DNA of 22,235 nucleotides from a virus, in IMG/VR virus record IMGVR_UViG_3300044949_000939, positions 1-22,235 of that record. One strand, given 5' to 3'. A program made the translations under genes and the position numbers. Every line of letters begins with the position of its first letter. Position 1 is the first letter of the stretch. This document shows, piece after piece, positions 1,566 to 3,415 of the stretch. Below the pieces are notes generated by a model, which ran no database searches, was not told where the DNA came from, and worked only from the letters and a program-made list of their open reading frames with translations.

Positions 1566-1778
1566 TTAGAATGCCTCGTCTACTTCTTCTTCCTTCTTGT
1601 AAGGAGGAGAGAATTTGAGGCTGATGTAGTCCACTCCCTTTTGGGACTTCTGTTTCCAGCCCGCAACGTCGAGGAGGACGCCATTGACCATTACCTTACC
1701 CTTGTGGGTCGGGGCTTTGGGGTTATCACTTTTGTTCGGGAACAATGCTCCCGAATTGTCTTTTTGCTGATTGCTCAT
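1566..1778 (-). CDS. Small phage protein, GALFxNK type (70 aa)
   Basis: The 70-residue hydrophilic product has an N-terminal NSGALFPNKSDNPKAPTHKG motif, then VMVNGVLLDVAGWKQKSQKG and YISLKFSPP. The order GALFxN...(D/T)HxGxxxVNGxxxxxxxWxKxxxxGxxYxSLxFxP is familiar from small phage proteins predicted to adopt a beta-barrel (OB-like) fold, often found among replication genes. The function is not established. The tail is acidic (KKEEEVDEAF). The start overlaps the upstream putative nuclease gene by 4 bases. Confidence 0.7.
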   Translation of the reverse strand: MSNQQKDNSGALFPNKSDNPKAPTHKGKVMVNGVLLDVAGWKQKSQKGVDYISLKFSPPYKKEEEVDEAF

Positions 1779-2284
1779 ATGTTATTTGGTTTCTTTATTG
1801 TTGCTTCACTAATAGCCAGTAGATCCACAGTGGGTACTACGGTCATCAGATCTTTTCTACCTTCGCGTTGGTAAAGTCTATAGACAGCGGGCTTCAAGCT
1901 TTGTTCACTATTTCCCACAATTGCTTCGATATAGGGCATGAGGGCGCGGCGATTGACCACGATCCAATAGCGTCTGGTCTCAAATGCGATGTAGTCAGCC
2001 TCTCCGTAGAGCCAGCCCAGTTCTCCGTGGACGTTGCGTAGCTCGACAAAATGCATGCGGTCTGTGGGTTTTGTGTCGCTTCGCTTCCACCTCTTCATTG
2101 CCTTAACATCGTAACGCTTGCCATCCGATTCCACATCCCAATGCTCTTTCATATCTTGTTCAGGAGTTGAGAACTTGGGATTGTTTAGCAGTTGAGCAAA
2201 CCGTTGTTCGGCTTTTTGCCCGATTTCATGGCATGACTTGGTCGCTTCATGGCATGTTGTAGTTGTTTCGTTGTATGTTTCCAT
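1775..2284 (-). CDS. Putative PD-(D/E)XK-like nuclease (169 aa)
   Basis: The ATG at 2284 gives 169 residues. A longer TTG start is possible but would run into the upstream gene. An N-terminal helix (GQKAEQRFAQLL, residues 22-33, Glu27) is followed by HWD (Asp50), then RYDVKAMK, with Asp59-Val-Lys61 forming a (D/E)xK motif. A later block reads ELGWLYGEADYIAFETRRYW. The spacing of Glu, Asp and D-x-K, with a hydrophobic strand and the GWLYGxADxIAFE block, fits a PD-(D/E)XK-type fold seen in some phage proteins. Nuclease activity is inferred, not shown. The N-terminus carries a short duplicated string around TCHEATKSCHE. Confidence 0.6.
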   Translation of the reverse strand: METYNETTTTCHEATKSCHEIGQKAEQRFAQLLNNPKFSTPEQDMKEHWDVESDGKRYDVKAMKRWKRSDTKPTDRMHFVELRNVHGELGWLYGEADYIAFETRRYWIVVNRRALMPYIEAIVGNSEQSLKPAVYRLYQREGRKDLMTVVPTVDLLAISEATIKKPNNI

Positions 2285-2291
2285 AGATAGC

Positions 2292-2498
2292 TTAGACCCC
2301 GTAAGTCTTGAAGCGTTCAAAGTTTATTGCCATACACCGCATGGCCTTGCCGTCATTCCCCACATCCTTGGCCCATACAGCATTATCGCTCACCACCCCG
2401 TATTCTTGGAGGAAGTTCATTACTTCAACTTCGTCCTCAAGTCGGGTTTTGATCCACCTCTCTAGTTTATTCCCAGTATAGGAGGGCATAAATACCAT
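2292..2498 (-). CDS. Hypothetical protein (68 aa)
   Basis: The 68-residue product is not recognised. It has a charged helical centre (KLERWIKTRLEDEVEVMNFL) and an aromatic C-terminus. The first ATG (2498) lies inside the preceding 31-residue membrane-peptide gene; a second ATG at 2489 gives MPSYTGNKLE and is equally possible. A gap of 7 bases separates it from the putative nuclease gene downstream. Confidence 0.6.
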   Translation of the reverse strand: MVFMPSYTGNKLERWIKTRLEDEVEVMNFLQEYGVVSDNAVWAKDVGNDGKAMRCMAINFERFKTYGV

Positions 2499-2562
2499 AG
2501 GAGAATGTTCCCCAAAAGATAATGGCTAAGATAGAGGCTGCAACAATTGTGGTTAGCTTCAT
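2467..2562 (-). CDS. Tiny membrane peptide (31 aa)
   Basis: Direct translation gives a 31-residue peptide beginning MKLTTIVAASILAIIFWGTF and ending YALLYWE. One transmembrane segment covers almost the whole length (residues 4-28), with a single Lys near the N-terminus and a Glu at the end. It lies just after another tiny membrane-peptide gene (2 bases between stop and ATG) and overlaps the 5' end of the 68-residue gene in another frame by 32 bases. The close spacing in a row of similar genes supports translation. Possible roles are holin-like or membrane-targeting; none can be assigned. Confidence 0.55.
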   Translation of the reverse strand: MKLTTIVAASILAIIFWGTFSYGIYALLYWE

Positions 2563-2564
2563 TG

Positions 2565-2654
2565 TTATTCAGGTTTAATGCGGTCTTTGATGACCTTGAG
2601 AGCCACGACAAGCATAGCACCCCAGAAAACAATAGCTACAAATGAGTCAACCAT
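2565..2654 (-). CDS. Tiny membrane peptide (29 aa, or 38 aa from TTG at 2681)
   Basis: From the ATG at 2654 the product begins MVDSFVAIVFWGAMLVVALK and ends in a charged tail (VIKDRIKPE): a single membrane span with a basic, probably cytoplasmic, C-terminus. A TTG at 2681 in frame overlaps the upstream stop codon (TTGACTGA) and would add nine mostly hydrophobic residues; coupling to the upstream gene makes this alternative attractive. It is the middle member of three consecutive tiny membrane-peptide genes. Confidence 0.55.
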   Translation of the reverse strand: MVDSFVAIVFWGAMLVVALKVIKDRIKPE

Positions 2655-2673
2655 TGCGGCGATTAGTAAGGCA

Positions 2674-2757
2674 TCAGTCAAGGTATTTGTCAGTTATCTT
2701 CCACCAGCCGATAAACAAGCAGGCCAGCATTGCGTAGATAGATCCTAGTGCTTCCAT
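2674..2757 (-). CDS. Tiny membrane peptide (27 aa)
   Basis: Translation from the ATG at 2757 gives 27 residues: MEALGSIYAMLACLFIGWWK followed by ITDKYLD. Residues 4-19 are a hydrophobic span and the C-terminus is charged. It is the first of three tiny membrane-peptide genes and starts about 26 bases after a strong terminator-like hairpin. The sequence AAAGGAACACAAACACA precedes the ATG; AAGGA is a weak Shine-Dalgarno candidate at long spacing. Confidence 0.5.
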   Translation of the reverse strand: MEALGSIYAMLACLFIGWWKITDKYLD

Positions 2758-2782
2758 TGTGTTTGTGTTCCTTTCATAAAGC

Positions 2783-2815
2783 AAAAGGGAGGAGGCGTTT
2801 TGCCCCCTCCCTTAA
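2783..2815 (-). terminator. Intrinsic terminator after the 47-aa gene
   Basis: On the leftward strand, AAGGGAGGGGGC (rc of 2802-2813) pairs with GCCTCCTCCCTT (rc of 2785-2796) around a 5-base loop AAAAC, with one mismatch. It is followed by TTTTGCTTT. It lies a few bases after the stop codon at 2818. The stem and T-rich tail are typical of rho-independent termination. Leftward genes continue downstream, so they need read-through or another promoter. Confidence 0.7.
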
Positions 2816-2817
2816 AA

Positions 2818-2961
2818 CTACAGAAGCTTACGTTTTGCCCAGTGAAACAATTTGACACAAGTCTTAGCGATTTGTTCCAAATCCTTCCGCTGTAATGTTC
2901 CAACATAACCAATGCTTCCGTAGGGGCCGAATACGATGCCCGATGGTATTGTGCACCACAT
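2818..2961 (-). CDS. Small protein with strong ribosome binding site (47 aa)
   Basis: The ATG at 2961 sits 4 bases after a full AAAGGAGGTGA sequence and opens a 47-residue frame beginning MWCTIPSGIVFGPYGSIGYV. The second half is basic and helical (KDLEQIAKTCVKLFHWAKRK then LL), possibly amphipathic. The Gly/Tyr-rich first half, FGPYGSIGYVGTL, looks like beta strands. The product is not recognised. It is followed by an intrinsic terminator. The unusually strong binding site and downstream terminator suggest high expression. A longer overlapping frame on the same strand (2745-2969) is less likely, because it ignores this start. Confidence 0.65.
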   Translation of the reverse strand: MWCTIPSGIVFGPYGSIGYVGTLQRKDLEQIAKTCVKLFHWAKRKLL

Positions 2962-2965
2962 AATC

Positions 2966-2976
2966 TCACCTCCTTT
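2966..2976 (-). promoter_or_regulatory. Consensus Shine-Dalgarno sequence
   Basis: The leftward strand reads AAAGGAGGTGA four bases before the ATG at 2961, an extended complement of the 16S rRNA 3' end. It stands out because almost every other gene in the window starts without a recognisable Shine-Dalgarno sequence. Confidence 0.8.
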
Positions 2977-3009
2977 CTGTAAAAGAACGAAGATCAGATT
3001 ATGCCAGTT

Positions 3010-3168
3010 TTACTTTCCCCCGTAAAGAGTTATCCATAAAAGTCCCCACTGGGAAAAACAATATCCTCCCCAGATGACTGATAGGGCGTAGTTTCCGCGC
3101 ACAGCTTGTTCCAGAGAAACAATACCATAGCAGATACCCACCGCCCCAATCAGCCAGATGCTAGTCAT
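3010..3168 (-). CDS. Small two-span membrane protein (52 aa)
   Basis: The ATG at 3168 gives 52 residues starting MTSIWLIGAVGICYGIVSLE, then QAVRGNYALSVIWGGYCFSQ and WGLLWITLYGGK. There are two predicted membrane spans (about 3-18 and 27-48) joined by a short loop containing ARG/Asn. A longer frame from 3246 would lie almost wholly inside the upstream gene, so the ATG overlapping that gene's stop by 8 bases is preferred. The pattern Y-G-x-x-S-L-E-x-x-x-x-G-N-Y is seen in small phage membrane proteins of unknown role. Confidence 0.65.
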   Translation of the reverse strand: MTSIWLIGAVGICYGIVSLEQAVRGNYALSVIWGGYCFSQWGLLWITLYGGK

Positions 3169-3415
3169 CAGAAGACTCTTCTTTGACTTCTTCTTGTTTC
3201 GGTGTGGTGGATTCCTTGAGAGATCCAAGGACTTCTTCCATACCATCGTAGGTAAGAAGAATGTCCACGGGATCAGAGTCTTTGCGCTCTCCTTGGATCA
3301 TTACGATGTTATCAGTGCCGCCGTTAAGCAGTGTGTAGTCCTTGGCCACATAGGCGCTGTTCACGCGATTAGTAAGCACTTCGGACGGGTCTTGTTGTTT
3401 GGTTTCTTCACTCAT
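3161..3415 (-). CDS. Acidic hypothetical protein (84 aa)
   Basis: The product is 84 residues with highly charged ends: MSEETKQQDPSE at the start and KQEEVKEESSDD at the end. A central region (NSAYVAKDYTLLNGGTDNIV and MIQGERKDSDPVDILLTYDG) may form a small folded domain. It is not recognised. Its stop overlaps the membrane-protein gene by 8 bases and its start overlaps the upstream stop as ATGA. Confidence 0.65.
   Translation of the reverse strand: MSEETKQQDPSEVLTNRVNSAYVAKDYTLLNGGTDNIVMIQGERKDSDPVDILLTYDGMEEVLGSLKESTTPKQEEVKEESSDD

Follow-up and report, generated by a model that had tools for sequence, protein, structure and literature searches.

A catalogue of small phage genes was reportedly assembled by Fremin in 2022. 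According to a review, phage small proteins (<100 amino acids) are now recognised in the millions (PMC11323111). Imm of the virulent phage T4 is a small inner-membrane protein with two spans, and for its full effect it reportedly depends on another membrane protein (PMC9952470). The phi29 proteins p1 and p16.7 are described as membrane-associated and as binding terminal protein (PMC4974454).

Here we analyse a locus of a tailed phage contained in a 22,235-base IMG/VR virus record (the window, by which we mean that whole stretch). A first-pass annotation had picked out three consecutive leftward frames of 27, 29 and 31 residues, whose coordinates, lengths and peptides are as it gave them (p27, p29 and p31; Table 1). 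The cassette that they form is real and conserved, is larger than first described, and belongs with the phage small membrane proteins.

Results

The locus and its neighbours

The three frames sit inside a leftward, minus-strand cluster of replication and nucleotide-metabolism genes, in which profile matches mark replication-initiator-like, HNH, RusA-like, dCMP deaminase and SSB-like genes. When the window was compared by megablast with 50,697 phage records, no match emerged, nor did one from a terminase tblastn search. Downstream of the cassette, family searches with q68 gave no match, and those with N181 gave weak matches only (NUC, E=0.041; phrog_793, E=0.0044). Some relatives (L003, L006, L010 and others) carry a 168-residue ORF inserted between q68 and N181, and in the 72.8-kb relative G001 an open frame of 3077 residues occupies 15032-24265 (L073/L074).

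Table 1. Features of the locus, listed from right to left; positions are those of the window
Feature	Positions	Strand	Description
q84	3161..3415	-	precedes E52; 8-nt overlap between its stop and the start of E52
E52	3010..3168	-	52 residues; hydrophobic, predicted two-helix hairpin; upstream of the cassette in 30/30
q47 unit	2758..3009	-	candidate moron-like layout
extended -10-like box TGGCATAAT	2998..3006	-	upstream of q47; one copy in the window
q47	2818..2961	-	47-residue ORF between E52 and p27; in 24/30; dN/dS 0.178 (86 pairs)
terminator-like hairpin	2785..2813	-	12 bp, GC-rich, T-rich tail; between q47 and p27
p27	2674..2757	-	27 residues, single span; MEALGSIYAMLACLFIGWWKITDKYLD
p29	2565..2654	-	29 residues, single span, ATG start; MVDSFVAIVFWGAMLVVALKVIKDRIKPE
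p31	2467..2562	-	31 residues, single span; MKLTTIVAASILAIIFWGTFSYGIYALLYWE
q68	2292..2498	-	soluble, 62-68 residues; start inside p31; dN/dS 0.175 (20 distinct sequences)
N181	1775..2320	-	downstream of the cassette; anchor for finding relatives (46 loci)

Three tiny genes under purifying selection

Three such frames in a row had been held improbable by chance, and simulation bears this out. We counted triples of ATG frames of 25-42 amino acids with a 17-residue Kyte-Doolittle mean of at least 1.6 and neighbours within -25 to +30 nt; the window's minus strand contains one, and 0 of 2000 simulated strands of the same length (order-2 Markov) contain any. Using E78, the long form of E52, as query, we found 29 other IMG/VR contigs, which with the window make n=30. 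p29 is present in all 29 evaluable contigs (in L004 the contig end cuts it off), p31 is missing only from L030 and so occurs in 28 of 29 (L004 does not reach it), and p27 is present in 26 of 30 (absent in L006, L016, L019 and L028). The set had been said to fall if relatives carried its frames broken by stops or frameshifts; among the carriers we found no broken frame of p27, p29 or p31, a result that favours the set.

The comparison of synonymous with non-synonymous change, also suggested at first pass, reveals purifying selection on all three frames. For pairs with dS<0.8, dN/dS is 0.110 for p27 (54 pairs), 0.122 for p29 (61 pairs) and 0.252 for p31 (50 pairs); over all usable pairs the values are 0.22, 0.20 and 0.34. 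Several contigs are near-identical, leaving 19, 25 and 24 distinct nucleotide sequences of p27, p29 and p31, respectively. Because such pairs share ancestry, we also used disjoint nearest pairs, which give pN/pS ratios of 0.286 for p27 (9 pairs, Fisher p 5.5e-9), 0.217 for p29 (12 pairs, p 3.5e-21) and 0.343 for p31 (12 pairs, p 9.1e-15). Part of the constraint on p31 may stem from q68, because the last 32 nt of p31 overlap that gene. Alternative frames over the three stretches mostly contain stops. In 23 of 24 sequences the +2 frame of p31 has no stop, but we rejected it as a gene: it is open owing to middle-T codons, and it is the third position of frame 0 that collects most of the changes.

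Judged by these comparisons, p27, p29 and p31 are three real protein-coding genes. That they are chance open frames in a non-coding stretch, as their shortness and the lack of a Shine-Dalgarno site directly before p29 or p31 might suggest, is hardly credible against the simulated strands and the intact, selected frames of divergent relatives. The same intact frames and purifying selection give good support to the view that these real, tiny membrane peptides, each with a single span, form a coherent set. As a set of three, however, the original description holds for the peptides and is too narrow for the block, since E52 with its two spans precedes them and the soluble q68 overlaps their end.

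Junctions, conserved patterns and predicted orientation

The 2-base gap reported between p29 and p31 is correct in the window; among 28 sequences this junction is a 4-nt overlap in 15 and a 2-nt gap in 13. The overlap reported between p27 and p29 (TTGACTGA) exists for a 38-residue form of p29 that starts with TTG at 2681, but not at the conserved start. We rejected this longer form: the TTG nine codons upstream is found only in the window, and an in-frame upstream start before a stop occurs in only 5 of 29 sequences. Conservation marks ATG as the p29 start, and the p27/p29 gap in the window is therefore 19 nt. Among 25 sequences, the p27/p29 junction is a 19-nt gap in 11, a 4-nt overlap in nine, a 1-nt overlap in three, and +11 and -8 in one each.

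Each peptide family has a pattern of its own: F..WWK.T.K..D in p27, with lysine or arginine on the C side; IKD.I.P at the C end of p29; and FW....YG.Y in p31. In every distinct peptide of p27 (13 of 13) and of p29 (19 of 19), lysine and arginine follow the span on its C side, and for this reason the positive-inside rule predicts that both have their C end inside. In p31 these residues are more numerous on the N side in 6 of 19 peptides and on the C side in 1 of 19, so its orientation is uncertain.

A search with a p27 pattern recovered 15 stretches, none of them outside the contigs that the set already included. A DNA pattern for the p31 motif recovered 20 stretches, nine of them outside the E52 set, and eight of these nine are not p31-like; gene context among the nine was viewed for L179 and L167. 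We discarded a 31-residue ATG frame with the p31 motif in L179 as a chance occurrence: the motif lies elsewhere in the peptide, the frame is antisense to an 89-residue frame, and the gene context is different. Neither the peptides nor E52 matched a named family in Pfam, NCBIfam or PHROGs. Profile searches of the PDB with E, p31, p29 and p27 gave no hits or weak ones (E 0.16 or worse), and our literature search, by title and abstract start, found no paper on the cassette, by which absence is not proven.

E52 and the q47 unit

E52 has the lowest dN/dS of the block (0.078) and the family pattern S.WLI...G..Y....EQ..KGN.......GY.FS..GL. In its AlphaFold2 model, helices 4-23 and 27-49 form a hairpin (mean pLDDT 92.1, pTM 0.68). 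A 78-residue form was set aside, as the longer reading is not conserved and conservation covers only the 52 residues from the ATG. A Foldseek search of BFVD with E52 returned 0 matches at E<=0.001 and many nameless hairpins. The E family gave no Pfam or NCBIfam match above cut-off and none in PHROGs better than E 0.079; at E<=10, no superinfection-immunity profile of Pfam matched E52, six of its E-family relatives or three tiny peptides.

Between E52 and p27 or p29, 24 of the 30 contigs carry an additional unit, which consists of a box of the TGG[CT]A[TC]AAT type, a conserved leader, a strong AGGAGGTG site, an ORF of 46-50 residues and a GC-rich hairpin. The folding energy of the hairpin is at most -21.8 kcal/mol in each of the 24 carriers, and in most of them a T-rich tail lies just before the next start. 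In the six contigs without q47, E52 abuts p27 (L008, L012, L017 and L018) or p29 (L006 and L019). An extra gene thus stands between genes that are adjacent in relatives, a layout that by its sequence features resembles that of a moron. Because promoter-like sites in the region do not exceed those in shuffled sequences (2 found, 3.9 expected) and the box occurs once in the window, promoter activity of the q47 unit is proposed from conservation. In many carriers the hairpin ends about 10 bases before the p27 start, which leaves no space for a Shine-Dalgarno site.

The E gene in distant phages

Viral contigs carry the E family widely: 325 stretches were confirmed, of which the best 80 were kept. 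Among 84,980 bacterial and archaeal species genomes, searched with slightly longer patterns, we found one locus, in an Anaerolineae MAG. Five phage records contain the family, one of them with a named host, Methylophilaceae phage P19250A. The proteins P19250A_0048, UOF80855, UOF80267 and UOF77927 belong to the same family as E52, with 59-67% identity to a distant-family query; identity to E52 of the window is 38% for UOF80855 and 37% for the frame in MW202879. The E-family proteins of sequenced phages are annotated as hypothetical and, unlike in the window, p29 and p31 were not seen beside those examined. At L071:2537-2677 (MW202879), the annotated hypothetical protein UOF82903 uses another frame than the E-family gene there.

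We compared 50 distant E loci (39 distinct sequences), which are not independent, many coming from one podovirus-like group. Within this set, the E gene is followed by a single-span ATG frame of 20-45 residues with an ATGA stop overlap in 12 of 39 distinct sequences, as against 6 of 314 other genes at the same loci; a tiny single-span frame within -20 to +60 nt accompanies 14 of 39 E genes and 18 of 314 other genes. In the remaining 27 of 39 distinct sequences no tiny peptide overlaps the E gene directly. L120 carries the pair immediately upstream of a family A DNA polymerase gene, and in MW202711 the order is E, a 33-residue single-span peptide and a 111-residue protein. The 33-residue peptide (L072:2637-2738) is annotated as photosystem II protein Y (psbY), a name that looks unfounded. 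In P19250A the E gene is part of a run of hypothetical genes, with an annotated holin gene some 2 kb further on; in MW202879 holin and peptidase genes precede it by about 1.3 kb.

Profile comparison aligns p27 with the distant-phage peptides in register around W-[KR] (E 0.0037, probability 9%), a weak match which suggests that p27 may be their counterpart. Kinship of p31 with these peptides was rejected, as hhalign aligned a single column. p29 and p31 were seen only in the phage group of the window.

Discussion

The cassette probably acts on the host inner membrane during infection rather than in bursting the cell. We lean, tentatively, towards a superinfection-exclusion or host-takeover device akin to T4 Imm. 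E52 and the single-span peptides would be made together early in infection and would enter the inner membrane of the host, where the C ends of p27 and p29 would face inwards and p31 would perhaps have the reverse orientation. There they would assemble into a small hetero-oligomer, with the peptides as partners of E52, whose most likely job would be superinfection exclusion or host takeover. The q47 unit in between would allow different expression levels for E52 and for the peptide block. Coding, coupling, span content and gene context are what the results above show; early expression, assembly with E52 and action on the membrane are what we infer.

Several observations argue for this Imm-type model. 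The three frames are unbroken and have low dN/dS; E52 precedes the set in 30 of 30 contigs and, where q47 is missing, abuts p27 in four and p29 in two; overlaps of 4 or 1 nt and 2-nt gaps are common at the junctions; an E gene with an ATGA-overlapping peptide recurs in distant phages, in L120 just ahead of a DNA polymerase gene; the cassette is located among replication genes; and E52 is predicted to fold as a hairpin. Because p27, p29, p31 and E52 match no named family, the parallel with Imm is architectural only. Against the model, E-family genes elsewhere are not always near replication genes (P19250A, MW202879), most distant E genes have no overlapping tiny peptide, the 39 distant sequences are not independent, and the profile comparison of p27 is weak.

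The tiny peptides might instead modulate a host inner-membrane enzyme, transporter or protease as stray small subunits, by analogy with KdpF or CydX. Their size and single span suit such a role, and the conserved aromatic positions (FW....YG.Y, WWK.T) suggest specific helix-helix contacts; no Pfam or NCBIfam small-subunit family matched above cut-off, however, the best hits being at chance level, and we regard this reading as rather doubtful.

The neighbouring SSB-like, RusA-like and replication-initiator genes, together with the distant-phage pair that precedes a DNA polymerase gene, could indicate that E52 and the peptides serve as a membrane anchor of the replication machinery, like phi29 p1 and p16.7, and keep replication proteins or DNA at the inner membrane. 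The basic C ends of p27 and p29 would be on the predicted cytoplasmic side, but these tails are too short for a folded DNA-binding domain. Small genes also tend to gather in early regions, so the neighbours may have no functional link to the cassette. We consider an anchor of this kind unlikely.

A holin-like role, which the first-pass annotation had put forward, is disfavoured. The relative G001 (72,849 bases) has the same gene order around the cassette as the window, with E52 and the cassette at about 38.6-39.3 kb on the minus strand, whereas a PF09682 holin (E 1.3e-8) and an Amidase_2 endolysin (E 1.6e-20) lie together at 70.6-72.1 kb on the plus strand, 31 kb away. In this one relative, then, the cassette is not beside the endolysin and would not be the sole holin. 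The window is a fragment in which lysis genes of its own were not seen, and the argument is drawn from G001. Small membrane peptides would befit a holin, pinholin or accessory lysis set, and some E-family genes in other phages do lie within a few kb of lysis genes. Set against these points, the position within the leftward replication cluster and the absence of a holin family match for the peptides or E52 in Pfam, NCBIfam and PHROGs join the evidence from G001 in making a lysis set quite improbable.

A more speculative reading reaches beyond the window: E52-type hairpins with one to three translationally coupled single-span peptides might constitute a recurrent, unnamed early membrane complex of tailed phages, built of very small subunits, which would take over or seal the host inner membrane during replication, and of which the window's lineage would have the expanded three-peptide form. 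If coupling reflects a shared complex, several subunits would make up a minimal membrane device, one found again in different kinds of phages and without a Pfam, PHROGs or NCBIfam match above cut-off. Such a device would offer a small, testable system for phage action on the inner membrane before lysis. The tiny genes also illustrate that comparison alone is enough to validate phage genes as short as 27-31 codons.

Among described systems, phage morons share with the q47 unit the arrangement of a promoter-like box, an ORF and a terminator-like hairpin between genes that touch in relatives; the unit differs in that its promoter is putative, with promoter-like sites not above chance in the scan. 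The phi29 proteins p1 and p16.7 resemble the cassette as phage membrane proteins tied to DNA replication, but p16.7 is described as binding DNA strands and terminal protein (PMC4974454), and the peptides of the cassette are too small to accommodate a domain of that sort. T4 Imm has two spans, as does the model of E52 (helices 4-23 and 27-49, pLDDT 92), and the place of its second membrane protein would be taken by the products of the coupled single-span genes downstream of E52. The locus departs from Imm in the 52-residue length of E52, in the three single-span peptides that follow it and in the putative nature of exclusion by E52. Like other phage small proteins, p27, p29 and p31 are small genes of unassigned function; what sets them apart is that they are three in a row, coupled, and tied to a widespread two-span partner.
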